The notes under the pieces were generated by a model. It worked only from the letters and a program-made list of their open reading frames with translations. It did no database searches and was not told where the DNA came from. DNA of 21,845 nt from a virus: IMG/VR virus record IMGVR_UViG_3300027917_002810, positions 1 through 21,845 of that record; one strand, 5' to 3'. Made by a program: the position numbers and the translations under genes. Every line of letters starts with the position of its first letter. Position 1 is the first letter of the stretch. Shown in pieces: positions 4,070 to 19,716 of this stretch.

Positions 4070-4465
4070 TTATCGTTCCTTGTTTTTATACATCTCTAAT
4101 TCTTTTCTAGCCTCTTCTTCGCTTTTAAAATAGCCAGATTCACGGGACCATGGTCCACATTGCCCACAGAATCTGCCAATATAATATCCAGCAGCAGACT
4201 TTTGGACATCTAGAGGCATAGGTTCGCCACATTCATCGCATTTCATATCATCCAGATATGCAGGTTCCCTTTCGCCAGTCTCTACATCACGCATAAATCC
4301 TTCTTCTTCTGCTACATATTTCTTTTCTGGGTCCAAATGTGACATAAATTCTGTATCTAGCTCTCCAGCTTCCTTCAAAATCTCGTCTATTTCACTAGCT
4401 TCTGCATGAAAACCTTTCTGGTCCAATAGATTTGCCAATTCAGCTAGTTTGTTCAGAATTTTCAT
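4070..4465 (-). CDS. Hairpin module plus zinc ribbon protein
   Basis: This is a 131-aa protein. Residues 2-33 are a close copy of the helical-hairpin module (LAELANLLDQKGFHAEASEI). A CDEC (C76, C79) and a CGQC (C100, C103) form a probable zinc ribbon, with hydrophobic GYYIGRF between them, and an acidic helical tail follows (SEEEARKELEMYKNKE). GGAGG lies eight bases before the ATG at 4465. The near-identity of its first 33 residues to those of the 194-aa and split-gene proteins nearby suggests a shared tag or interaction module fused to different partners. Confidence 0.8.
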   Translation of the reverse strand: MKILNKLAELANLLDQKGFHAEASEIDEILKEAGELDTEFMSHLDPEKKYVAEEEGFMRDVETGEREPAYLDDMKCDECGEPMPLDVQKSAAGYYIGRFCGQCGPWSRESGYFKSEEEARKELEMYKNKER

Positions 4466-4524: not shown

Positions 4525-7500
4525 CTAATTACGTATAATTGAATCAAATTGCCTATATAGCTCGCGGACATACTTTTGATACTTCATCTGATCATTTTCT
4601 CTTAAATATTTTAATGTTCCGTCTCGCTCCAAAAAATTACGAAATCTGTACACATATAGTTTTCGTTTCGTATCAGGATCCATATCTTTAATGTGTTTAT
4701 TAAATAACTGTGGATATGCTCTATATTCACCATCAGTTACCCAGCTTTTTAAAACATTCTCTTTCATATATTCTATAGAATTAACCATTCTTGCAAAAAA
4801 CTCTACATCAGAAGTAGCATGTTGTTCAGAGAATTCTTCTCCAGAACTTTCTTCGTTATATCTTTGATAAGTGTATGGATCATAATAACTTGGCGTACCA
4901 ACTTCCTTGTGTCTGCTAACTTTTGCACCACAATATGGGCACTCATAATCTTCAGGATATTTGTCAAATTTCTTTTTGCATCTTATGCACTGTATTGCAC
5001 CAAATTCGTCTGGTTTTACCTTTTTTATTCCCTGGCCCATAGATGACTGCATCATGTGTATTAACTCATGCTTGATAGTTGTTTTAATTCCATCATCGTC
5101 ACGCTCGCCAACGCCCCATAATACTATCTCTCTTTTGCTTTCGTCATGATGACCAGCCTTTTCTGGATGAGACCTTTCATACAGTGTAACTGTTAGTCCG
5201 CCATATATATCTTTTTCTTTTAACCATTCGTGCCGATCATATTGTTTTGTATCTGATATATCAAATTTAAAATATTTACTAATTTTTTTTCCATATTTAC
5301 TATCATTATAGTCTAGTGCATATTTACTACGCTCTTCATCAGTAATATGTGATGGATCCTGTGAATACCTAATATAGTCGTACAACGCATCTTCTGCTTT
5401 TTTAAGCGATTTTGATATCGCCCATGCATAATTTGCATACGCTTGATACTGGCGAAGCGGAAGGGCAAAGTCTGTAGAAAGAGAGGAGGAGATATCTTCA
5501 CTTTCTACATTAAACACGACATCTTTAAATCTAGGTTGCGATATTTCTAGACTAGGCAAACGAACATCTCTATAAATTTCTGGTTCGGGCTTATGTTCGC
5601 CATACTCATGTTCTTCTTCCTCTATATATTTAAACAGCCCTTCATTGTTCGTCACAATGTTTTTTGCTTCAGCCCACAGTTTGTTCCAAGCATCTTCCAG
5701 CCATTTTTCATCTATTGTGCTTATTGTTAGTTTTTTTGCCTTTTTATCATATTCAAAATTTATCCATGTTTCTTCATCAACAGGCATATTTCCATTATTT
5801 ACATCAATTGAAATTAATGGAAATGCAAAATAAAAATGTCCACTAAGAACATCGTCGTTATTTTCTGATATATTAAAATTGCAACTGTCTAGTCCTTCTG
5901 AAATTTCTTCGTCCCAATCACCTTTCTCTATCTTCTTAAATTCTTTTTTGAATATTTGATATAATGCTTTAGATCTATGCATAATATCTCTTAAAAAGAA
6001 TGTTATAGTTTTATCTCTTTCTTGATCTATACTTTTTTCTTCTATAGTGTTCAATAATTCATCTTGAGCCTTATATACGCCGTCATGTGCACTTTCTTTT
6101 TCCCAAGTCTTGTGTATAAAAATTGCCCAATCTGCTATTTCTTGATACATCTTTTTTGGATAATCAATTATCCCTGCTAGCCTAGATAATTTAGTCTTTT
6201 TTTTTAAGCCAAGTGGAATCACAGTATGGTCATCGCCGTTCCATATCTCCACCTCATGTATCATACAAGAGCCACTTGGAACCTCACCATCATAAATTTT
6301 CTTCGGTGGTTCCATATATTCTAGAGTTGTATGTGGCTTGTAAGTCGGAAAACTATCAACCAGATCAACCTTAGCGTTCAAGATCGCTTTCTTTAATGCC
6401 TTGTTTAACTTCTTCAGTTCGTCAGATATGATTGTCATCTTTGCAACTTTGCAATCATCGGAATGCTTTGTGGCCGGAAAATATGTTACCTTGTCGTCTA
6501 GTGTTATTTCAAACGGCTCATGTTCCATTGCAACCCGTCTCACGATTTCCTCAACCAAAATCTCGTTACACTCTTTGATCGGGCCAATGTAAAGCGTAGT
6601 TATATGTGGAGTAGAATCATCATGTTCACCTAACGACGGAAATTGCTTCGCGAGTTCCTTTGGAAGCTTAATAAACACACCGGCATTTTTCTTATCACCA
6701 GCACGCTTCGATAGTTTTCTTGGCACATCTCGTGCAGAAAACTTTGAAGCTGACTTATCAAGACCAAGATCCATATACAGCTTCTGTGCCACTTGTGCGG
6801 CCTGCTCTTTTGTAGCTCCTGGGTTTTCTAATTGCCAATCCATTAGCGCCTTTGTGAGTTGGCCAACCCATGGTCCGCCCTTACGGTTGACAAGTTGCAT
6901 AATCTCATTGCCGTTTAGAATTGGCTTAAATTCATGAGCCTTTTCAAGTCCCATTTCGCCAACCTGTTCTTTCATCGATTTAAAATATGTTGGATCAAAT
7001 GTTGACAACCAATCCTTTTTGTGGGCAGAAGTATCGGCCATCGCTAAATCTATAGCATTTTCCCAGTCTTCGCCAATGGTTTGTACAAACTTACCCAATG
7101 CTTTACGACTCTTGTTGCATACCTCATTATTTTTTTGCCTTTGTGGATTAACACGACGAGCAGCATCTATTAATTTTTTAACTTCCTCGATTTCCTCTAC
7201 ACGAATGCCTGGTAATCTTCGCAATGCGTATTCTGCAGCACGCATACTTGCATCTTCGTGGCCATGATAAGTATTTACTTCCTTGTTATCTTCTACTATC
7301 TTTGTCCCTTTAATTTCTGGATCAAGTTTTCCAGCATCATGCATTAATGCAGCAAGATTAATTACAAACTTTTTTGAATCGCTTAGATTTCTGTCTTTAA
7401 TAATTGTCTGTAAATTGCTCAAGGTTTCCATTGTGTGTCCCCACACATCTAGTTCATGGAACGAACTTTTCTGATCCATTTCCCATTCTTCATATTCCTC

Positions 7501-10500
7501 GGGCAATTGTAATACCTCTGACCGTAACTGAAAATCTTTTATCAGCTCCATCGCCATTCTTGGATCTGAAGCTCCTGTTATTATTTTACGAAACTCTTTC
7601 TCTATTCTCTCGCGAGACACCTTGTTTCTAAAGGCGTCCTGAACATCTTCATCACGCACTGCTTCAATTATATCTTCTTTGATTTCAAAATCATAACGAG
7701 ATGCAAATCTAATATACCTAAGGGCTCTTAATGGATCTTCCATAAGAGTTTCTTTTGGCGGAATAGGAGTTCTGATGACGCCCTCTTTAATATCATCGAG
7801 GCCACCAACAAAATCTTCTACTTCGCCAGTATTGATATTATAGAATAATGCATTAATGGTAAGATCCCTACGATGTGCATCCTCTTCTGGAGAATCTGTA
7901 GGAACTATTTGTGGAATACGAGATGTTTCGTCGTATTTTTCTGTACGAAGGTTTACAAAATCGATACTTCGTCCAAGCAAATGTACGACTGCCGTCTCAA
8001 GATGCTTGGATTGTTCTGGGTTAGCCTGTATAACTCCCATGCTGGACTTTTCGCCATGCATATCTGCATATCTTTTAACAAGCTCCGCAAACTTAACGCC
8101 TGACATATTATCAACTGCTATATCTATATCGTCACTTTCGCGACCCATTATTTTGTCACGCACCCATCCGCCTGCTACTCGAAGAGTTGTACTTCGCGCA
8201 GATGACTTAATGGTATTGCGTAACAGATCAAAAATTTGTTCTTCTTGTTCTGTTAAGTCTATTTTTACATCGGCAGCACGTTTTGAAATCCTGCGAGACT
8301 CTTGTTTGAATAGTGGAATTACATTATCACCAAGAATTCCAGGAATTTTTTCTTTGGCCAAATCAACAGCCTTGCCACCTATATTGGTACTCAAAAAGTT
8401 CTTCAATATGTTTAACGAAGCCTCTTGGTTATCATTCCTGCTTTCTAACATGGTATAATAATTTGATAAGCCCCTGTCTTGAATATTTAAGATCACTCTA
8501 ATCATTCCATCAGCATATGTCCATATAACCGACATTTCTGGATTTTCTCTTATTGGAATCTCTCCAGATACATGCAGTATGTGTTCATCTTTCCTAATGT
8601 CAAATGATCCGGGCAAATTTCGAAGCTCTTCTATAATATCCATGGATATTTGAGAAAAGCCTATAAGTTCTCCGGCTCTTTTAGATAGCTTTTTTGACGC
8701 ATTACGATCCCGCAACGATATTGGTTTTTCAACATCGTTATCTAGCCACTCTGGCATCTCTAGCTCAACTTTATGTGGATCCTTAATGTTGCGGGCGGCA
8801 CCAGCACTCTCTTCATAGTCAGGATAATCTTTTTGGAGTCCTAAATCAAAAAAGGAGTCTGGGTTGGTGTCTATTAATTGAACAATAGCACCGCGACCCA
8901 ATTCTGGAAATTTGTGATGTAGATGATAATAGAAAAATGCACGAACATCCTGCTGCGACAAAAACTCAGCAGCCTGTTCAATCATATTTTGGAATTCTTC
9001 CTCTTCACGCTCGTGATATTTAAAGATGAAAAAGAATTTTGCATTATCTTCAATAAGTTTTTTTAATGCCTTTGACTCTAGTTCAGGGTATTCTTTGTGA
9101 AGTCCACGATAGAAAAATTTCTCTGGTTCTTCATCACACAACTTACTGGCTTCAGACTCACTAATATCATGGATGTCGAATTCTGGTTCTTCTTCCTCGT
9201 GTTTCCAACGAAAAATAGGTGCCTTTTCAAACCAATCACCCATCATATCATCAATGCCGAAGCCCATATCTTCTGATGCTGTTTTAATTCCAAACGCTTT
9301 TTCAAATCCATCAATTATTTCATCTGGAGCATTAGAGTTAGTTAAATCTTCATAAATATCTTTAATCTGCTTTTCACGCTCGGCATCGTCCTTTGCTCTT
9401 TTTGATATATGATTGGACGCATATTTTCCTTGTTGCAACACTTGCACAACGGCAGCTCTATCATAGCTGGCACTTTGTATGCGAGTATGTATGCAATTAT
9501 TAGCAGTCTCTATTAGAGGACTCATCTTAACCGGAAGACCAGGGTGTTTAGACACAGCTCTTACAGTGGCGTCAATTTCATACAAATTGCCACCACTAAT
9601 ATCCATACAATTTCCTCTTGCATGACTAAATTTTGTTTTAGTTGGATCTAAAACTGGTGCACCTAATATATATCCGTGATGCTGTTTTAAAAGTTTAGAT
9701 AACTGTCTGCACAGACGTTGGTCTTGCAATTGTTCCATAGATATTCTTTGACCAGTTGCTTTAAACCAGTAGTTTCTAATTATTCTTCGCTGATCATCAG
9801 GAAATCGTTTTCCTGATGTCATTCTTGCTGTTGGCGGAAGAAACGGCTGCAATGTTTTCCATGCATCTAAAATAATTGGAGTTAATTTTACATTTCGTCC
9901 AATTCTCAAATCTTTACGAAGCTCTTGATCAACATCAATAATTGGTGGCAGGCCATCCTGTTGTGGCGTTCTAGCAATATATTTTATTGAATCAATCCAT
10001 TTAACATCTTCTGGTGTTAGTTTAGCCCGCTTTGATAACAAGGGGGTGCCTGATTGTCTTTTTACAAGCGCATCTTTAGATTGATACTGTTGTAATTTGG
10101 TAGCATATTCTTGCGCTGGAGGCATTATAACACTTCTGGACATTTCTATATGAACAGCATTGTTTGCTTTTTCATTTCTTATTTCAGAAATCTGAAGTGC
10201 CTGTGGAAACATGGCTACAACATCATGCACAGCTTTTGTAATAGCATTACGATTTGCTCCAGAAATATCAAAAGCGGTGCTTGTTTGATGTCCGGATTGT
10301 CCTACTTTTGCAACTTCCGGCTTATCTAATTCTTCTGGAGTTTCACTGTTGATTTTATCAACCATAGCGTTTAAAACCCACCTCTGGAACCTATTCCATG
10401 GTTTTTTGCGCTTAGTTGCATTCCAGTATAAAATTCTTACAGATCGTGCACCTATACCTAGATCGTCATTGAAGTTTTTATAATAATATCCACCCCAATC

Positions 10501-11625
10501 TCCTGTTTCTTTGTCAAATCCTACCCATCCGCTACTTCCATCTTCCTTGACTCCCCAGCTTCTCCAGTATTCTAATATTATTTCTGCCTGATAAAACTCG
10601 TCTCTAAATGCACTTGTTAGTGTCGCCCCCTCTGGTAAAAATGGTGCAATAATTCTCCATGCAGCCATCGTGCTAGGATCTTTAATGTCCGCATTTGGAC
10701 CAATACGATTCACATTACGATTTATATCTACTTGTTGTACTAGATTTTCTAGTTCATCTGGATCAGTAACAGTAATAGGGCCTTCTGGAGATTCATTAAT
10801 AGATTTTCCAATTGGCAATTCTTGTTCGGTTGGCTCGACTGCCCTAATGCTAAATGACGCATTCTTCTTTTTATCTTTTTCTTTCTTTTCTTTGCCCTCG
10901 TACTTTTCAACCAATTCTGGATCAAGATATTGATTTTTTAAAGTAGATGGTTCGTGGCCAACTATTTCCGCAACCTCTTCAAGTGCTTCTTTAAAATCTT
11001 TTTTCTTTAATTGCTCTTTCATTAAACGATTTGCATGAAAGCCACGCAGGTCTTTTGCGCTGATATCAAATTCCTTTAGATAACGGTTAACTGTACGGTC
11101 CCATATTTTCTTGCCATCTATTTCAAATATAAAATCATCTTTCTTTTTACCCTTCATTAGATCTCTGACAACTTTAATTACCTTATTATTCTCAAGCACG
11201 ACATTCTGCTCAATGGCACCTTTCCCAGGAAAATCAAATGTCATTTTACCAGTGCCACCCTTAACATGCTTGACTTTTAAAGTTGTTGCGCCATATGTTC
11301 CTTCCTTTGCTGATTCTTCATTACCAATACGCATAGCGGTATCATCCATTATACCAACAATAGCTGCAACAGCACGGCACCGATCATCATCGGAAGTAAG
11401 ATCTTTTTGATATTTGTCTCGAACTTTCCTAAGATTCTTTTCTAGGTTTTTTAGTTTTTCCTTCTTCTCTTTCCAGCGCTTCTCAACGTGCTTTTCGTCA
11501 TATATCCACACGTATCCCTTGTCCGTCTTTTTCTTTTCTTTATAAGCGGGCTTGTCGGATGTAACTTTGGCACATCTTTGTGAAAATGGCCTATTGATTA
11601 ATCGTTTGCTCAATTTCTTGTTCAT
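4525..11625 (-). CDS. 2366-aa multi-enzyme polyprotein (topoisomerase IB, 2x M15, NTase-HD, 2H, metallopeptidase)
   Basis: This is one continuous frame from ATG 11625 to TAG 4525. Domains in order: clamp-less topoisomerase IB (20-250), M15-like 1 (285-505), M15-like 2 (535-725), helical FF/YPEL repeats (745-950), unknown (985-1105), CCA-type nucleotidyltransferase plus HD (1118-1625), 2H phosphoesterase (1643-1808), and unknown plus HELIH metallopeptidase with zinc ribbon (1818-2366). Copies of a K-[LI]-S-K-R-A-like motif lie at residues 4, 529, 739, 979, 1112, 1637 and 1812 (degenerate at 258), always between domains. The start overlaps the preceding gene by 35 bases and has only a weak GGCGGA, 12 bases away, as ribosome binding site. 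Every domain keeps its key residues, so this is not a decayed fusion. I infer a precursor cleaved or targeted at the motifs. A genuine giant multidomain virion protein is the alternative. Confidence 0.9.
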   Translation of the reverse strand: MNKKLSKRLINRPFSQRCAKVTSDKPAYKEKKKTDKGYVWIYDEKHVEKRWKEKKEKLKNLEKNLRKVRDKYQKDLTSDDDRCRAVAAIVGIMDDTAMRIGNEESAKEGTYGATTLKVKHVKGGTGKMTFDFPGKGAIEQNVVLENNKVIKVVRDLMKGKKKDDFIFEIDGKKIWDRTVNRYLKEFDISAKDLRGFHANRLMKEQLKKKDFKEALEEVAEIVGHEPSTLKNQYLDPELVEKYEGKEKKEKDKKKNASFSIRAVEPTEQELPIGKSINESPEGPITVTDPDELENLVQQVDINRNVNRIGPNADIKDPSTMAAWRIIAPFLPEGATLTSAFRDEFYQAEIILEYWRSWGVKEDGSSGWVGFDKETGDWGGYYYKNFNDDLGIGARSVRILYWNATKRKKPWNRFQRWVLNAMVDKINSETPEELDKPEVAKVGQSGHQTSTAFDISGANRNAITKAVHDVVAMFPQALQISEIRNEKANNAVHIEMSRSVIMPPAQEYATKLQQYQSKDALVKRQSGTPLLSKRAKLTPEDVKWIDSIKYIARTPQQDGLPPIIDVDQELRKDLRIGRNVKLTPIILDAWKTLQPFLPPTARMTSGKRFPDDQRRIIRNYWFKATGQRISMEQLQDQRLCRQLSKLLKQHHGYILGAPVLDPTKTKFSHARGNCMDISGGNLYEIDATVRAVSKHPGLPVKMSPLIETANNCIHTRIQSASYDRAAVVQVLQQGKYASNHISKRAKDDAEREKQIKDIYEDLTNSNAPDEIIDGFEKAFGIKTASEDMGFGIDDMMGDWFEKAPIFRWKHEEEEPEFDIHDISESEASKLCDEEPEKFFYRGLHKEYPELESKALKKLIEDNAKFFFIFKYHEREEEEFQNMIEQAAEFLSQQDVRAFFYYHLHHKFPELGRGAIVQLIDTNPDSFFDLGLQKDYPDYEESAGAARNIKDPHKVELEMPEWLDNDVEKPISLRDRNASKKLSKRAGELIGFSQISMDIIEELRNLPGSFDIRKDEHILHVSGEIPIRENPEMSVIWTYADGMIRVILNIQDRGLSNYYTMLESRNDNQEASLNILKNFLSTNIGGKAVDLAKEKIPGILGDNVIPLFKQESRRISKRAADVKIDLTEQEEQIFDLLRNTIKSSARSTTLRVAGGWVRDKIMGRESDDIDIAVDNMSGVKFAELVKRYADMHGEKSSMGVIQANPEQSKHLETAVVHLLGRSIDFVNLRTEKYDETSRIPQIVPTDSPEEDAHRRDLTINALFYNINTGEVEDFVGGLDDIKEGVIRTPIPPKETLMEDPLRALRYIRFASRYDFEIKEDIIEAVRDEDVQDAFRNKVSRERIEKEFRKIITGASDPRMAMELIKDFQLRSEVLQLPEEYEEWEMDQKSSFHELDVWGHTMETLSNLQTIIKDRNLSDSKKFVINLAALMHDAGKLDPEIKGTKIVEDNKEVNTYHGHEDASMRAAEYALRRLPGIRVEEIEEVKKLIDAARRVNPQRQKNNEVCNKSRKALGKFVQTIGEDWENAIDLAMADTSAHKKDWLSTFDPTYFKSMKEQVGEMGLEKAHEFKPILNGNEIMQLVNRKGGPWVGQLTKALMDWQLENPGATKEQAAQVAQKLYMDLGLDKSASKFSARDVPRKLSKRAGDKKNAGVFIKLPKELAKQFPSLGEHDDSTPHITTLYIGPIKECNEILVEEIVRRVAMEHEPFEITLDDKVTYFPATKHSDDCKVAKMTIISDELKKLNKALKKAILNAKVDLVDSFPTYKPHTTLEYMEPPKKIYDGEVPSGSCMIHEVEIWNGDDHTVIPLGLKKKTKLSRLAGIIDYPKKMYQEIADWAIFIHKTWEKESAHDGVYKAQDELLNTIEEKSIDQERDKTITFFLRDIMHRSKALYQIFKKEFKKIEKGDWDEEISEGLDSCNFNISENNDDVLSGHFYFAFPLISIDVNNGNMPVDEETWINFEYDKKAKKLTISTIDEKWLEDAWNKLWAEAKNIVTNNEGLFKYIEEEEHEYGEHKPEPEIYRDVRLPSLEISQPRFKDVVFNVESEDISSSLSTDFALPLRQYQAYANYAWAISKSLKKAEDALYDYIRYSQDPSHITDEERSKYALDYNDSKYGKKISKYFKFDISDTKQYDRHEWLKEKDIYGGLTVTLYERSHPEKAGHHDESKREIVLWGVGERDDDGIKTTIKHELIHMMQSSMGQGIKKVKPDEFGAIQCIRCKKKFDKYPEDYECPYCGAKVSRHKEVGTPSYYDPYTYQRYNEESSGEEFSEQHATSDVEFFARMVNSIEYMKENVLKSWVTDGEYRAYPQLFNKHIKDMDPDTKRKLYVYRFRNFLERDGTLKYLRENDQMKYQKYVRELYRQFDSIIRN
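4528..6174 (-). other. Polyprotein domain 8: unknown region plus HELIH zinc metallopeptidase with zinc ribbon
   Basis: These are residues 1818-2366. The first 320 residues are an unrecognised helical and beta-rich region. Then IKHELIHMMQ gives the HExxH zincin site (H2186, E2187, H2190). A candidate third ligand is E2275 in SDVEFFARM. Between them lies a zinc ribbon, CIRC (2213, 2216) and CPYC (2229, 2232), an unusual insertion right after the active helix. It could cut host proteins or the polyprotein itself. Substrate is unknown. Confidence 0.7.
6202..6699 (-). other. Polyprotein domain 7: 2H phosphoesterase (LigT/2'-5' RNA ligase-like)
   Basis: These are residues about 1643-1808. The two signature H-x-T motifs are STPHITTLYIG (H1674, T1676) and YKPHTTLEYM (H1765, T1767), about 90 residues apart as usual for the 2H superfamily. 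Members hydrolyse 2',3'-cyclic or 2'-5' phosphate bonds or act on RNA ends. Placed next to a tRNA nucleotidyltransferase, an RNA-repair or RNA-signal-degrading role is plausible. Confidence 0.8.
6751..8274 (-). other. Polyprotein domain 6: CCA-adding/poly(A)-polymerase-type nucleotidyltransferase with HD domain
   Basis: These are residues about 1118-1625. The class II nucleotidyltransferase core shows GGWVRD (1152-1157), DIDIAV with catalytic D1166 and D1168, RRDLTINAL near 1252 and EDPLRALRYIRFASRY near 1296. An HD domain follows (H1397, HD 1429-1430, and HGHED near 1454), as in E. coli-type CCA enzymes, where it has phosphatase/phosphodiesterase activity. It would repair or mature tRNA 3' ends. 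Nucleotide specificity (CCA against A) cannot be decided by eye. Confidence 0.85.
8311..8673 (-). other. Polyprotein domain 5: small unknown alpha/beta domain
   Basis: These are residues about 985-1105, bounded on each side by an SKRA motif. Alternating hydrophobic strands (HILHVSGEIPI, MSVIWTYADGMIRVILNI) are followed by helices. No catalytic motif or family was recognised. Confidence 0.5.
8776..9393 (-). repeat. Polyprotein domain 4: acidic helical region with four ~29-aa FF/YPEL repeats
   Basis: These are residues 745-950. After an acidic helical lead-in, four units of about 29 residues start near 825, 853, 882 and 913. Each has the form xxLIxxxPxxFFxxxLxxxYPELE (examples EPEKFFYRGLHKEYPELE and NPDSFFDLGLQKDYPDYE). 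The second unit is the most worn. The pattern suggests a small helical solenoid. I do not recognise the family. Confidence 0.6.
9451..10023 (-). other. Polyprotein domain 3: M15-like peptidase, copy 2
   Basis: These are residues about 535-725, a diverged duplicate of the previous domain. FLPPTARMTSGKR parallels FLPEGATLTSAFR. FSHARGNCMDIS supplies H668 and D675 with the same H-x6-D spacing, and NNCIHTRIQ supplies H713. Both copies have a preceding IGxN...W segment, so the duplication covers the whole domain. Identity between copies is low, which points to an old duplication or to separate acquisition of two family members. Confidence 0.65.
10111..10773 (-). other. Polyprotein domain 2: M15-like peptidase, copy 1
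   Basis: These are residues about 285-505. SGHQTSTAFDIS gives H446 and D453 in the H-x6-D spacing of M15 (D-Ala-D-Ala carboxypeptidase/VanY-like) zinc sites, and NAVHIEM gives H492 as the third ligand. Upstream, FLPEGATLTSAFR matches the usual entry strand. It would cleave peptidoglycan peptides, as virion lysins or endolysins do. The catalytic acid normally just before the last His is not certain, so a binding-only role is possible. Confidence 0.7.
10876..11568 (-). other. Polyprotein domain 1: DNA topoisomerase IB catalytic domain
   Basis: These are residues 20-250 of the polyprotein. Type IB signatures are complete: R99 in MRIGNEE, then YGATTLKVKHV, K135 in FPGKG, R194 in KDLRGFH, H224 in VGHEPS and the nucleophile Y233 in NQYLDPE. 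These correspond to the Arg-Lys-Arg-His-Tyr set of vaccinia topoisomerase. The enzyme would relax supercoils through a 3'-phosphotyrosyl intermediate. The usual N-terminal beta clamp (with an IPPAW-like segment) is missing. Only about 70 lysine-rich residues precede R99, so substrate grip may differ. A recombinase is less likely because YGATTL and GNEE are topoisomerase features. Confidence 0.85.
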
Positions 11626-11929
11626 AGGTCGATGATCCGCCGAATTCAGATTTCATTTGTTGTATTAAATATGCCATAAAACTTCGTAATGTTTTAGCAA
11701 AAGTCTTTTGAAAATAGCTCATGGTCTCGCCACGATCTTCACTTTCACGATAGGTTTTACTTAATTTATCATGAAGCCTTCTAGCCGTATCTATTACCAC
11801 CTTGGCATGTGTTGTATTTTTCTTAGATACAGCTAAATCGAACTCATGTTTTAAAGTTGTTAGCGCTCTATTCAAACTATAACTGTTGTTATAGTCTATA
11901 TACATATCTAGCTTAGTAAAAAAATCCAT
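11591..11929 (-). CDS. Small helical protein between portal and polyprotein
   Basis: This is a 112-aa protein of unknown function. It is helical, with Tyr-rich N-terminal residues (FFTKLDMYIDYNNSYSLNRA) and an amphipathic middle. The ATG overlaps the portal stop as TAATG, so translation is probably coupled to the portal. Its own 3' end overlaps the polyprotein start by 35 bases. Its position after the portal would suit a head-completion or assembly factor, but no motif supports that. Confidence 0.75.
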   Translation of the reverse strand: MDFFTKLDMYIDYNNSYSLNRALTTLKHEFDLAVSKKNTTHAKVVIDTARRLHDKLSKTYRESEDRGETMSYFQKTFAKTLRSFMAYLIQQMKSEFGGSSTYEQEIEQTINQ

Positions 11930-13902
11930 TATGGTCCTGGTGGGGGTGGTGCGCCACCGCCTCCTCCGCCAAGTTCACCGCCCGGAGGTGCGCCACCTGG
12001 AGGTGGTCCCAATCCACCACCTGGCTCACCACCCAATGGTGGTCCACCCGGAGGTGCTCCGCCACCGCCTCCCGGCATTGGTGGAAGTCCCATGCCTCCG
12101 CCTCCCGGCATTCCACCTGGAGGTGCGCCTGCACCAGGAATACCCGCTTCTTCAGCACCTGGCGTTCCTGGTAATGGGGCTTCTGTTGGTTCAATAATAT
12201 CTTCGTCTGGCTTAAGCGAACGCAAAGCACCAAGAGTCATACCCTGTAGTATTTGTTGCTCTTTTGCCAGAATAGCATTATGTATCATTTCTTCTTTAAT
12301 CAACCTACGTTCCTCTTCCATATTTAACCCAAGACTGCGATATAATGTTGTAGTAGATACCTTGTTGTTTTGTGACAACTGATTAAGTACATTAATATAA
12401 TTGTCCATATCGAAAAGAATCATTTTATTCCATTCGACCTCTGGAACAATCAGTTTTTTGTCACCATCTCTGTATTCATAAAATTCTTGAACCTCACTAA
12501 TCGGTGCAAAAATTTTCTTTATTAACCACTGTGCCATCATATTTCTGAAGGTTTCATATCTTTGTTTTAAAACCTCTAGACCAATTGTCGCACTATTAAA
12601 AGAGGCTCCCTCTTGTGTAATTACTGCCTTTGGTACCAATAGACCGTGTAAAATATTGTCCAATATGAAATTCATATCGTTGCTAATATCAATAATTTGA
12701 CCAGAGGCCCCAACACGTTCAACTGCCACGCCAGCATGAGTGATGATTTTGAAATCTTTATCATACTGCGCTGCCTCAAATGTTTGTCTCCATTTTTCTA
12801 ATGCTTCACCAGTTGGATGATATTCGCCCTCTGCCGTTCCACCAACTTTCACTAATGTGATAGGATTTACAAGATTATCAGCTTGAGCAAATTTAGATTC
12901 GCGTAATTTATCATATAACATCAAATCTTTGTAAATACTAACAACCAGTGCAGTTCCATGAATATCATACGGCGAAGATTTCATTGCTAAATGACTAATA
13001 TGAAAATTATCCAAAGGAATATTGTTCCCCTTCCTTATGTGGTATAAAATCTCCTCATCAATTTGTTGTCGCAACTGTTGATCTGCTGGACTACTACTAT
13101 GTACTAGGCGCTGTAACGCGGCATCTGGACGCATAGATATAACTGCTTCGCCACTTAATACAGATGTTTTAATATGGATATAATCTGGATTTTGTACAAC
13201 AATACTTTTCCACATTCCTCTGTTTTCATCAAGTTCTGCATACGGGAATACCTCTCCCATCTTCCAAAACTCCAAAGCCACAGCTTGTAGAACATCAATT
13301 AAATTAATTTCTTCTGCCATGTCTTGAAAAAACTGTTCAACCTTTTGGTCCTTGCACTTGATGTTTATTTTACTAACTGGATATGAAGCATGCAAATTAA
13401 TGCAATTATGCACCAATGGATGAGTGTCATAGAAGTTTCTATTCCAAGCATTCATTGTTATGCGGTCACGAGGTAATTGTAGGTTTGCAATCTGAAATAA
13501 TGGAGAATATACTTCTGGAGCCTGTCTAACCGTACTACCAGTCGCTCCCATTCTGCTACCATCTGATATTGAAACACCAGTGGCAGTTTTTACAAGACCA
13601 TATTTTTCTTTTATTTCTTGTGTACGCTTGTAAGAATTGCTATATACAAGTAACGGTTCTGGACCGCCACTAGACTGACCCGCTTCTGTAGCACGAATCA
13701 ATTCTTCTCGACGATGCTCAGACACGCCTTCTATTGCCCCAAGTTCTTCTGGATTTATCACGCCTCTAGCCTGTAAGTGGTGTTCAGAATTTGACACACC
13801 TTCTTTCACAATTGGTGCAGGTCTCGCCCCAAATTGACCAGACTTAATAGTGGCCATTTTGTTAGGTTTTTCTGATTGCCAATCTCCTCTCTTAATTCCC
13901 AT
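11929..13902 (-). CDS. Phage portal protein with Gly/Pro-rich C-terminal tail
   Basis: This is a 657-aa protein. Portals form the dodecameric ring at one capsid vertex through which DNA is pumped by the terminase. The call rests on length, position directly after TerL, and portal-like core segments: a THPLVHNCINLHA helix near residue 160, then KSSPYDIHGTALVVSIYKDL and KFAQADNLVNPITLVKVGG, typical of the stem and wing. Family membership is not settled. AGAGG lies seven bases before the ATG at 13902. The final 86 residues are a Gly/Pro low-complexity tail, unusual for portals. A KTA tripeptide (GLVKTATGVS) near residue 107 recurs in other proteins here. Confidence 0.85.
   Translation of the reverse strand: MGIKRGDWQSEKPNKMATIKSGQFGARPAPIVKEGVSNSEHHLQARGVINPEELGAIEGVSEHRREELIRATEAGQSSGGPEPLLVYSNSYKRTQEIKEKYGLVKTATGVSISDGSRMGATGSTVRQAPEVYSPLFQIANLQLPRDRITMNAWNRNFYDTHPLVHNCINLHASYPVSKINIKCKDQKVEQFFQDMAEEINLIDVLQAVALEFWKMGEVFPYAELDENRGMWKSIVVQNPDYIHIKTSVLSGEAVISMRPDAALQRLVHSSSPADQQLRQQIDEEILYHIRKGNNIPLDNFHISHLAMKSSPYDIHGTALVVSIYKDLMLYDKLRESKFAQADNLVNPITLVKVGGTAEGEYHPTGEALEKWRQTFEAAQYDKDFKIITHAGVAVERVGASGQIIDISNDMNFILDNILHGLLVPKAVITQEGASFNSATIGLEVLKQRYETFRNMMAQWLIKKIFAPISEVQEFYEYRDGDKKLIVPEVEWNKMILFDMDNYINVLNQLSQNNKVSTTTLYRSLGLNMEEERRLIKEEMIHNAILAKEQQILQGMTLGALRSLKPDEDIIEPTEAPLPGTPGAEEAGIPGAGAPPGGMPGGGGMGLPPMPGGGGGAPPGGPPLGGEPGGGLGPPPGGAPPGGELGGGGGGAPPPPGP
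11932..12189 (-). repeat. Low-complexity Gly/Pro-coding tract at the portal C-terminus
   Basis: The last 86 codons of the portal gene (residues 572-657) encode PGG, GAPPGG and PPG units from repeated GC-rich elements such as ccacctggaggtg, in sharp contrast to the AT-rich surroundings. Slippage between repeats could change its length. Confidence 0.8.
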
Positions 13903-13915
13903 GTTCTACCTCTTT

Positions 13916-15796
13916 TTATAGTCCTGGCAGATATGCTAACACAGGAGCATTGGCTTTAGAATTTATTTGGAAATTCTTAATCTTAAACCCTTGTGTTAGA
14001 AAAAATTTATACGCTAAATAGGCATACATAAGGGCCATTAAACCATCATTTGGTCCTGTCCCTTTTACATATCTGGTTATAACTCTTCCTTGAAATGTTC
14101 TTGTTTCCTTTTCCATTGAACAACAGTGTTCAATTAACCATTGTATTTGTTCATAACTCTTCCATGGAAAACGCACTTTGCTTTTTCTCATGTTACTAAA
14201 AAGCTCTTCTAATATAGTATGATGGTTAACTATGATTCGCAACTCTTCTGGATCATACTTAATTGGATTAACAAGACTGCCACTATTCAGACAACCTATA
14301 ATTCTTCCACCATACTCCCGTTGTAGTTCCGGAACTATATCTGCGCCATAACCTAAGTCGGCTACAGTATTCTTGATATCGAACCTTCTATACATTTCAT
14401 TTACAACATCTTTTTTATGCTGAAAATCCTTTTTCTTTAGCTTAAAAGCATTCTCAATCTGCAAAACCCCTGCCCTATCTACCGATACAATCACAATCGA
14501 TGAAAATGATTTGCCACTGGTTGAAGTTACACTGTCTTCTTTTCCACCCCAGTCAATACCCATAAAAGTTGGCGGACGATATGGAGACATTGCTTTTGCT
14601 TTTAAATCGAACCTGGCATTTGGCACACGAGGAATTCCATATGAAAGCTTTTTATCAATGTTTCTACAATACTGGTATATTTCTTCCTCTGACATTGGCA
14701 GATCAGAACCACTGTAAAATTCTCCAAGTATTTCGTTCTTCCAAATCCTTTCTGAATTGGTAGGATGAATACCAGGCTTTTCCTTCAGTATTGTCTCTTT
14801 ATGAAATTCAGGGATTAGCAATTGATTAAAGTGAAATCCAATATACTGGGGTTCTTCACCATTTGCCAATCGTGGTTGTGACGGAATCCATTTACCACGC
14901 TCTATTGCTCCAATTTTTTCTTGTTGATGATCACAGTGAGGGCATTGTACAATGTTAGCATACAGCCAAATTTCTTCCCAATCATCTTTTCCAAGTTCAT
15001 ATAATTTGAAAAATTTCTTACATACAGCACACCCAAGATGATACATTCTTTTATCAGATGCTTCCCACATCTTATAAAAATTAGAACCACGTTGCAAAGG
15101 AGTTCCAAAATACATTTGAATGCCCTGTCCACGTGGTCCATATCTGGCAGCAGTAAGTGTTCGCTTACTATTACCGATATCATCCTGATTCATTCGCTGC
15201 ACTTCGTCATAAAAAATACAATCGAGCGACATACCATGTAATCTCTGAGCATCATTGGCATTCGAATCGATCCAAAGCTTGTTTTCATTCTTAAATTGCT
15301 TTTCGGTTAGCGTATCATCAGGAACATCAACGCGCCTCTTTCCAGTCTCTTTGTCATATGCCAGCGCATGATCAAGAACATAATTATCCTGTGCAGTACG
15401 CATCATAGTACTTAATTTATCTTTTGCAAATTTTTGTACTAATGCCAATGCAGGAAAGCAGTGTAAGATTCTAATTGGGGGTTTTTCTGGAGATGTACCG
15501 AATAGATCACTGGTACAAAAGTATAGCTCAAGAGCAGTGGCCATAGTGGTAGCACCAACCTGACGACCTTTCACACAAACGACAGGCTTGCCATCAGGCC
15601 CCATCGCCTTGGTTGCAATATAGCGATAAACATCCGCTAAGTATTTCCATCCTGTCCCGCCACCTAACTTTAATGGTTTGCTATCTATAGTAAGATAATT
15701 TTCTGCAAAGGATACTGGATCAACTTTGAGAACTTCTTTCTTGAGGTCTTCAAACCATCTTTCCATAGTGGAATGGGACTGCTTGTTTGCCGTCAC
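13916..15796 (-). CDS. Terminase large subunit (GpA-like)
   Basis: This is the 626-aa packaging motor. It is an ATPase that drives DNA into the prohead and a nuclease that cuts the concatemer. Visible are Walker A KGRQVGATT (76-84), Walker B CIFYDE with D197-E198, coupling motif YFGTP (229-233), and a zinc-binding insert CAVC (256, 259) and CPHC (285, 288) typical of the lambda GpA type. The RNase H-like nuclease acids are D415 (GIDWGG), D480 (VADLGYG) and D584 (GPNDG). The start is GTG at 15796, overlapping the preceding stop as TAGTG. An ATG ten codons later is the alternative. All motifs are intact, so it should be active. Confidence 0.95.
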   Translation of the reverse strand: MTANKQSHSTMERWFEDLKKEVLKVDPVSFAENYLTIDSKPLKLGGGTGWKYLADVYRYIATKAMGPDGKPVVCVKGRQVGATTMATALELYFCTSDLFGTSPEKPPIRILHCFPALALVQKFAKDKLSTMMRTAQDNYVLDHALAYDKETGKRRVDVPDDTLTEKQFKNENKLWIDSNANDAQRLHGMSLDCIFYDEVQRMNQDDIGNSKRTLTAARYGPRGQGIQMYFGTPLQRGSNFYKMWEASDKRMYHLGCAVCKKFFKLYELGKDDWEEIWLYANIVQCPHCDHQQEKIGAIERGKWIPSQPRLANGEEPQYIGFHFNQLLIPEFHKETILKEKPGIHPTNSERIWKNEILGEFYSGSDLPMSEEEIYQYCRNIDKKLSYGIPRVPNARFDLKAKAMSPYRPPTFMGIDWGGKEDSVTSTSGKSFSSIVIVSVDRAGVLQIENAFKLKKKDFQHKKDVVNEMYRRFDIKNTVADLGYGADIVPELQREYGGRIIGCLNSGSLVNPIKYDPEELRIIVNHHTILEELFSNMRKSKVRFPWKSYEQIQWLIEHCCSMEKETRTFQGRVITRYVKGTGPNDGLMALMYAYLAYKFFLTQGFKIKNFQINSKANAPVLAYLPGL

Positions 15797-18173: not shown

Positions 18174-18949
18174 TATCGTGGTGTCCCATAATCCAAGTTT
18201 CGTCGCCAAAAAGCCGGCTTCTTGTCTTTTACTTCATCTTCGTGAGGATCCATTTTCTTCAATTCTGTATAGTAATCTTGTTCTTCTTTATCTTTACCAC
18301 CCTTAAGTTGTTCGGCCAAATGATCTCCAGCAATTTCTTTTGCTATTTCTGGGTCATTAGTATGTTCCATTTCTACTTTTTGTCCCATTTCTAATTGCTT
18401 TTTATTCATTTCATCATATTCCACGTCATCGCCAGCCCCACCCTTTAGCTTATCTTTCTTAGCATGTTTGATGGCAACATCACGGAAAATTTCTGAACCA
18501 CGAACACCAGCTACAGCATTTGCCTGTGCTTCATCCCACGCTCTTCTGTTGTCTGGATTACCGAACCAAGACGATACCTCTGCCCACGATTTTCCGGCCA
18601 AATACTTTACCATGTCACCAAAACTACGATCCTTCTTTACTTTTCTCCGCACCGGCGTAGTAGGAATTGGCTCTAATGGTAATTCTTCTAATGATGGACC
18701 TTCCAAATTGTCATCAGCTTCTTGTGGCGCCACCTGTTGTCCGGGTGCAACTGTAACCGTCTGCTGACCAATAGCTTCATCTATTTTTCCTTCTACCTGA
18801 TCATTTAATTGTGTAACAAGATCTGTTATTTGGCCCACTTTATCATCTTCACTCATACCACTGTTCTTAAGTATATTTGTCAACTGAGCGAGTGTATCAG
18901 TGACAAGTTTTTTTATTTCTTGTTTTTTAAGTTCTGCTGTTTGTGGCAT
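18173..18949 (-). CDS. DUF5661-like protein
   Basis: This is a 258-aa protein. The N-terminal 60 residues are helical, then comes a Pro/Gln linker. The C-terminal half includes KVEMEHTNDPEIAKEIAGDH and DYYTELKKMDPHED, which match the pattern VEMEHT..p..A.eIA.DHL.E..DYY..L..M of the DUF5661 family as I remember it. That family is widespread in phages and bacteria and has no established function. A KYLAGKSWAEVSSWFGNPDN segment near 117 is unassigned. Both ends overlap neighbours as TAATG. It is probably a virion or assembly protein by neighbourhood only. Confidence 0.75.
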   Translation of the reverse strand: MPQTAELKKQEIKKLVTDTLAQLTNILKNSGMSEDDKVGQITDLVTQLNDQVEGKIDEAIGQQTVTVAPGQQVAPQEADDNLEGPSLEELPLEPIPTTPVRRKVKKDRSFGDMVKYLAGKSWAEVSSWFGNPDNRRAWDEAQANAVAGVRGSEIFRDVAIKHAKKDKLKGGAGDDVEYDEMNKKQLEMGQKVEMEHTNDPEIAKEIAGDHLAEQLKGGKDKEEQDYYTELKKMDPHEDEVKDKKPAFWRRNLDYGTPR

Positions 18950-19716
18950 TATAGGGCCCTCGCTAATTGACGTCTTTGTATTAATATGTCTGAAATTGTT
19001 TTGGTTGTTGGAACTAATGGTAAAAGTTTATATTCAATTAGCATCTCCATTCCCTTTTCATCATCCAATCGTACAATTTCATTCATCTTATCTTGAACAA
19101 ACTTAACAGGAAGCTCTTGTATTTTCTTCCTATTATTTAGCATCGTAGTTTTTAATTTATTATCAATCTTAAAATCAAATCGGATCGCAAACTTTATCGC
19201 TCTTAAAATTCTCCGTGGATCAACATTGATTGTAATCTCTGGATCCACTGGACATTTAATAATTCCTGCCTGTATATCTCCGATTGCTTCTCCTGTTACA
19301 TCATAAACTGCTGTGAAATCCAGGCTCTCAAGCAAAGTATTCATCGTAAAATCTCTGCTATATAATTCTAGCTTCATAGAATCCACATCTTTGACTCCCA
19401 TTTTATCGAGTTCTTCTTTAATTCCTGGAGCAAGAAAATTGCTCGAAAAATCTATATGGAGTCCTCTAAAATCTACCGAAGCGTGTCCGTCATCATATGT
19501 TCTATAATAACTTCCCTTCAGCTTTCTGTGTAACTCTTCCGCCAGAACTAGCGAGCTTTTGTCGCCAGTTGTAATATCAATATCATTTATTTTAGATATT
19601 TTCTTTCTAATACCAATAATACGATCTCGTGGAACACCGCCAACCATAAATGGCTGTGACATTCGCTTGGAGTTTGCGACCTCCGTCATTATAAGTAGCA
19701 GTTCCTCAAGTTTCAT
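18949..19716 (-). CDS. Stand-alone CCA/poly(A)-polymerase-type nucleotidyltransferase
   Basis: This is a 255-aa protein of the class II tRNA nucleotidyltransferase/poly(A) polymerase superfamily. Visible are GGVPRD (26-31), NDIDIT with catalytic D45 and D47, a third acidic strand LHIDF (D89), SRDFTMNTLL (120-129) and VDPRRILRAIKFAIRF (165-180). It stops soon after the core and has no HD domain, so it is shorter than cellular CCA enzymes (about 400 aa). It probably adds nucleotides to RNA 3' ends, likely repairing tRNA. It starts three bases after the previous stop with no clear ribosome binding site, so it probably relies on reinitiation. The polyprotein carries a second, HD-containing relative. 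Confidence 0.85.
   Translation of the reverse strand: MKLEELLLIMTEVANSKRMSQPFMVGGVPRDRIIGIRKKISKINDIDITTGDKSSLVLAEELHRKLKGSYYRTYDDGHASVDFRGLHIDFSSNFLAPGIKEELDKMGVKDVDSMKLELYSRDFTMNTLLESLDFTAVYDVTGEAIGDIQAGIIKCPVDPEITINVDPRRILRAIKFAIRFDFKIDNKLKTTMLNNRKKIQELPVKFVQDKMNEIVRLDDEKGMEMLIEYKLLPLVPTTKTISDILIQRRQLARAL

Follow-up and report, generated by a model that had tools for sequence, protein, structure and literature searches.

One frame of 7.1 kb in the window (the whole stretch of viral DNA that was analysed, 21,845 nucleotides of IMG/VR record IMGVR_UViG_3300027917_002810) joins unrelated enzymes in a single polypeptide, with a short peptide tag recurring at the boundaries between them. On sequence comparison, the tag and the modular design were judged to be real, selected and modular. 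Since related viruses shuffle the parts at the tags, the frame probably encodes a modular, virion-delivered toolkit in which the tags would guide loading, cutting or both.

Genomic setting and modules of the giant ORF

The preliminary description had reported a single multi-domain frame, and this was confirmed by the start and stop codons, by Pfam and fold matches and by the M15 and zincin motifs. The frame lies in a leftward late-gene block, where it comes after terminase large subunit, portal and a 112-aa ORF.

13916..15796, minus: terminase large subunit (PHROG 675, E 9e-56)
11929..13902, minus: portal protein (PHROG 16240, E 1.5e-57)
11591..11929, minus: small conserved ORF of 112 aa between portal and giant ORF
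4525..11625, minus: giant multi-enzyme ORF (ATG at 11625, TAG at 4525, 2366 aa)

The terminase and portal genes lie directly upstream of the giant ORF in relatives as well as in the window, and a head maturation protease/scaffold ORF lies downstream in four records. An assembly artefact was ruled out by the presence of the same design in independent contigs. A second, short nucleotidyltransferase gene (18949-19716; PolyA_pol head, E 2.6e-10) is located upstream of the terminase gene in the window, and most relatives have one.

The giant ORF was divided into the following modules.

10855..11571, minus, aa 19-257: topoisomerase IB module (Pfam PF01028)
10039..10839, minus, aa 263-529: M15-like module a
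9421..10023, minus, aa 535-735: M15-like module b
8722..9393, minus, aa 745-968: conserved module, taken as helical
8302..8673, minus, aa 985-1108: module X, followed by different neighbours in relatives
6790..8274, minus, aa 1118-1612: CCA-adding-type nucleotidyltransferase and HD domain (Pfam and fold match)
6208..6699, minus, aa 1643-1806: 2H phosphoesterase module (Pfam and LigT/CPDase fold match)
4528..6174, minus, aa 1818-2366: HExxH zincin-type metallopeptidase module with zinc ribbon (HELIH and SDVEFFAR conserved)

Pfam matches above cut-off were obtained for Topoisom_I (PF01028, aa 51-255, E 8e-32), PolyA_pol (aa 1148-1285, E 7e-29), HD (aa 1394-1491, E 1e-4) and 2_5_RNA_ligase2 (aa 1667-1777, E 6e-9). 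The topoisomerase module is 65-83% identical to those of three relatives. An AlphaFold2 model of aa 1105-1830, covering the nucleotidyltransferase-HD and 2H modules together (mean pLDDT 82), matched CCA-adding enzymes (9kma, E 8e-28) and LigT/CPDase-type 2H proteins (5h7e, 4qak and 5ldm, E about 1e-4).

The M15-like modules gave only weak profile matches to D-Ala-D-Ala carboxypeptidases (E 0.4-0.9), and those of relatives matched VanY (E ~0.03). Their H, D and H positions are invariant in nine copies, two from the window and seven from relatives. We infer that the C-terminal module is a zincin-type metallopeptidase from HELIH and a downstream glutamate motif; the two motifs (KHELIHMMQ and SDVEFFAR) are kept in two relatives. 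No match of this module to Pfam zincin models was obtained, and its AlphaFold2 model was poor (pLDDT 46, built from only three sequences).

Related giant frames

A direct search of viral contigs with the full protein returned no relative, and the topoisomerase alignment had no match in 84,980 species genomes. Relatives were reached through a terminase search (11 related loci), a topoisomerase search (two more contigs) and 2H and nucleotidyltransferase searches, which added others. Eight giant frames in these relatives, some of them truncated at a contig end, carry the modules in other orders.

G010: 2634 aa, in a 162-kb record
G011: 2621 aa
G008: 475 aa, cut by contig end
L054: 849 aa, cut by contig end
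L055/G013: 1290 aa, in a 206-kb record
L085: 2602 aa
L073: 1619 aa, cut by contig end
L006: 194 aa, cut by contig end

The relatives re-join modules at tags. The zincin comes first and the topoisomerase second in L054, whereas the zincin is last in the window. Module X precedes the nucleotidyltransferase in the window and 2H in G010, and in G011 the protein ends with it. In G011 the 2H module is instead a separate downstream gene with the start MKLISRRHKEA, which has the tag at residue 4; a search for domains as separate, N-terminally tagged genes had been proposed in the preliminary description. Its reading of separately tagged proteins that had become fused is upheld by the reordering of modules with the tag at the joins, and by unrelated late genes that start with the tag.

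Other modules occupy the chains of some relatives. A LigD 3'-phosphoesterase domain (PF13298) is present in G010 and L073 (E 5e-22 and 1.5e-23), together with a LigD primase-like match (PF21686) that fell below cut-off in both. An ART-like module takes the same slot in L006, with a weak match to PF18760 ART-PolyVal (E 0.07). The zincin module is absent from several relatives' chains, and two chains stop a few residues past a tag. L085 has a duplicated tag-bounded block with YPxL-type repeats (aa 917-1482 and 2201-2599), the second part of which is 83% identical between copies.

Several further features were noted in the larger records. The G010 portal (L033:493-4734) has 1413 aa, against 657 in the window, and contains two insertions that resemble inteins, one of them matching LAGLIDADG; the major capsid gene of G010 (L034:16221 to L042:470) is split by several homing-endonuclease-like ORFs. 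In L034:309-4106 and G013:193256-197284 the maturation protease is fused to a very long scaffold-like tail in which RRAYWLGGGGxNEPTPGKxKY blocks are repeated. The first 43 kb of G010 (L040, L037) encode elongation factor Ts, trigger factor, DnaJ, ClpP, an M16 peptidase and a class-V aminotransferase resembling cysteine desulfurases, which is an unusual, host-like proteostasis set.

The boundary tag

The tags of the giant ORF, with their variants, are as follows.

11599..11613, minus, aa 5-9: N-terminal tag LSKRL
11572..11586, minus, aa 14-18: variant tag FSQRC at the topoisomerase module start
10840..10854, minus, aa 258-262: tag FSIRA at the topoisomerase/M15 boundary
10024..10038, minus, aa 530-534: tag LSKRA
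9394..9408, minus, aa 740-744: tag ISKRA
8707..8721, minus, aa 969-973: tag ISLRD, first of a doublet
8674..8688, minus, aa 980-984: tag LSKRA, second of the doublet
8275..8289, minus, aa 1113-1117: tag ISKRA, partly in a low-pLDDT stretch
6727..6741, minus, aa 1629-1633: tag FSARD, first of a doublet
6700..6714, minus, aa 1638-1642: tag LSKRA, in a low-pLDDT linker
6175..6189, minus, aa 1813-1817: variant tag LSRLA before the zincin

An SKRA-like motif had been described at the N-terminus and at nearly every boundary, with different codons each time. Five [LI]SKRA copies (530, 740, 980, 1113 and 1638), each spelled with a different set of codons, bear this out, against 0.005 copies expected from residue shuffles. 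The exact form required correction elsewhere: the N-terminal copy is LSKRL and not SKRA, the topoisomerase/M15 and pre-zincin boundaries carry FSIRA and LSRLA, and two sites have an upstream partner (ISLRD at 969, FSARD at 1629). Such doublets, 7-12 residues apart, recur. Where the window has FSQRC, relatives have ISKRA, LSKRA or ISIRA, and where it has LSRLA before the zincin, L054 has ISVRA. In the AlphaFold2 model, tags coincide with low-pLDDT stretches between confident domains, as expected of a recurrent polyprotein boundary in unstructured linkers, linker disorder being modelled for aa 1105-1830 only.

The consensus was [LIF]-S-x-R-[A/D/H], with information dropping sharply on both flanks, over 62 boundary sites that were chosen by eye with the motif in mind. 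At matching boundaries identity was 100% for S, 86% for R and 73% for A, against 5-37% in the flanks, S being fixed in part by how the sites were picked and the flanks having been compared ungapped. Since S, R and A are kept while their linker neighbours diverge, we take the tag to be under selection.

As a partial guard against circularity, modules were called with the motif residues masked, and 38 independent module copies outside the source sequences were scored. A strict tag lay near the start of 24 of these, against 4.5 expected from circular shifts, and 24 was never reached in 20,000 circular-shift trials; related chains are pooled here, so the true significance is lower, although the effect is still large. 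Of the remaining starts, some have degenerate tags only and some have no tag. Module-homology ends fell within 20 aa of a tag in 39/70 cases in a junction test in which related pairs enter more than once and the motif is left unmasked; the masked test is the one to trust.

Tags are not confined to giant frames, and in the two large records they cluster in late genes. G010 has every copy between 43 and 146 kb, its first 43 kb being free of tags; part of one ORF is counted twice in this list. In G013, 7 of 15 copies are in the giant ORF and most others in neighbouring head and tail genes. Several unrelated late genes, whose products may be virion cargo, carry the tag at residues 3-12. Neither the major capsid protein of G013 nor the protease/scaffold ORF of G010 or of G013, which are typical substrates of a maturation protease, contains the pattern [LIF]SxR[AHD].

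A DNA-level repeat or recombination site was ruled out as the source of the tags by codons that differ copy by copy, and internal translation starts behind the tags by a start codon distance that is not constant (1 to 43 codons). Tags of the SLR and SIR type may resemble encapsulin cargo-loading peptides.

Two other elements were observed in late regions. A small HExxH-type tail-region protein, with weak eCIS_core and M91 matches, starts with tags in G010 (L042:12237-12758, LSMRH) and in G013 (about 159.7-160.3 kb, LSKRH and ISKRA). A hairpin-like helical element of about 21-30 aa (LAxxLDxxGxxxEAxxID) occurs in many late proteins, frequently towards the N-terminal end: in the window at 49-711, 1557-2300, 2310-2894 and 4070-4465, in G010 at 43-82 kb (7 matches) and in G013 at 187-202 kb (5 matches), all in late regions. 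This element, too, may serve in loading or docking.

Proposed explanation and alternatives

Virion packaging followed by injection is the favoured reading, on three grounds: the place of the ORF after the portal gene, its domains of polyvalent type, and the precedents set by P1 DarB and the T4 internal proteins. We put at even chances that the giant ORF encodes a phage polyvalent protein among the head genes that is packaged and injected, with the tags serving in loading, processing or both. Packaging into the virion had been raised in the preliminary description as a possibility; what the present analysis adds to it is the gene position.

The frame, its modules, their reshuffling at tags, the selective conservation of the tag, the place after the portal gene and, for part of the chain, the predicted linkers are what the data show. 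From these we infer packaging, injection, a loading role of the tags, cleavage and payload functions for the giant chain, as follows. The chain of unrelated enzymes would be packaged in the head and enter the cell with the DNA. Late proteins that were once separate would have borne the tag at the N-terminus as a virion-loading signal; the tag would have been retained upon gene fusion, and would now be the place where the chain docks to the prohead and, more probably than not, where it is cut to release separate enzymes. The M15 domains would help in crossing the cell wall, the nucleotidyltransferase-HD and 2H modules (with LigD in relatives) would repair the ends of RNA or DNA or else break down nucleotide alarm signals, and topoisomerase IB would adjust the incoming DNA. 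The specific version in which one tag per enzyme is both loading signal and precursor cut site, and in which phages swap enzymes at the tags, is put forward tentatively, as rather less than an even prospect.

The position of the tags bears on both roles. Tags near residues 3-9 of separate genes are easier to understand as loading signals than as cut sites, and a tag at the very start of such genes suggests a loading signal; tags kept in internal linkers suggest cutting or multivalent docking. Processing at the tags is plausible. The protease/scaffold and capsid proteins without tag speak against the maturation protease as the cutter, and the small tail-region zincin (itself starting with tags) and the zincin modules are alternative candidates. 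Two chains end just past a tag, where a cut would do little, and this counts against cutting. The missing zincin in several chains and the module starts with degenerate or no tag count against the proposed explanation as a whole.

The tags could instead only dock an uncut chain of ~270 kDa to the prohead core or capsid wall, the chain being packaged and injected whole. Large cargo of this kind has precedents in P1 DarB (250 kDa, packaged through an N-terminal signal) and in the N4 virion RNA polymerase, which is packaged unprocessed, and the N-terminal tags of separate genes and the untagged capsid and scaffold proteins also agree with it. One tag would be enough for loading, however, and the internal copies would need another reason, such as multivalent binding; we regard this alternative as possible but on the unlikely side. 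That the tags are purely recognition sites, for the maturation protease or for a zincin acting on its own chain, with no loading role, appears improbable. Predicted unstructured linkers around the tags, a maturation-type protease gene downstream in four records and the metallopeptidase autoproteolysis proposed for P1 DdrB would suit pure cut sites, but the untagged capsid and protease/scaffold ORFs, the several chains without zincin and the tags at the extreme N-terminus of separate genes would not.

A tag that is a relic or neutral linker from repeated fusion or recombination, functionless now, would account for module joins that coincide with tags, for the two chains that stop just past one and for the tandem duplication of a tag-bounded block in one chain. 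Against it stand the conservation of S, R and A beside diverging linker neighbours, codon spellings that differ between tags and recurrence of the tag on unrelated late genes, and we give it very little weight.

If the proposed explanation is true, the tag would be a readable signal that predicts virion-borne phage proteins and module starts, of the kind that the P1 study sought among Dar proteins without success (PMC9024508). It would also account for the way in which phages build up and trade sets of injected enzymes, and would provide a natural example of loading multiple enzymes into a capsid. With its CCA-type repair, 2H, LigD, topoisomerase IB and wall peptidase activities, the payload would suggest end-repair and counter-defence from the very onset of infection.

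Comparison with known systems

The closest cultured relative of the maturation protease is gp19 of Bacillus phage G (34% identity over 96% of the query), and the capsid protein of that phage is related by inspection. Phage G has no giant multi-enzyme ORF adjoining its portal gene, and no boundary-like tag was seen in the 26-kb head region inspected, where one ISKRG lies inside the capsid protein. The uncultured phage LR745208 (485 kb) is similar in having topoisomerase IB fused to another enzyme after the portal, with a related protease downstream. The fusion, of a HAD-like phosphatase and topoisomerase IB, lies directly after the portal region (L069:7305-8831); it differs from the giant ORF in having just two recognised domains, joined without an SxRA tag.

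Prohead cuts of the T4 type follow glutamate motifs. In T4, a short N-terminal targeting sequence brings the internal proteins and Alt into the prohead, and the prohead protease cuts it off; the SPN3US relative cuts at AXE (PMC7411985). The tag of the giant ORF differs in that it ends in R-A and is lacking from capsid and scaffold, and targeting and cutting are putative here.

P1 DarB (250 kDa) is packaged in the head via a short N-terminal targeting sequence of more than 9 and fewer than 30 residues, in which truncations implicated residues 6-10; a consensus among Dar N-termini was sought and not found (PMC9024508). The giant ORF product is similar in size and, like DarB, would probably be packaged in the head. 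Dar proteins have one signal per protein, whereas the giant ORF has one per domain, and the domains differ.

The preliminary description knew of no phage system with this content. This was too strong, as the general kind is that of the polyvalent proteins encoded by phages and conjugative elements, which are very large, multidomain and portal-terminase-linked (Iyer et al., 2017, PMC5512222). As in those proteins, unrelated biochemical activities (at least two domains) are joined in one polypeptide and domains shuffle between members. Zincin peptidase, 2H, Pol-beta-type nucleotidyltransferase, primase, DD-peptidase and ART classes are common to both; in the giant ORF itself this published repertoire is represented by 2H and nucleotidyltransferase, from Pfam and fold, and by zincin and M15/DD-peptidase, from motifs and weak matches. 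Topoisomerase IB, CCA-adding-type nucleotidyltransferase-HD and LigD modules were not found in the text on polyvalent proteins, which also describes no recurrent boundary tag or linker (PMC5512222), and a narrow search of the open-access literature did not return the same content with a tag-delimited design. The kind of protein is thus already known, and the new part, relative to the literature searched, is the content together with the tag.
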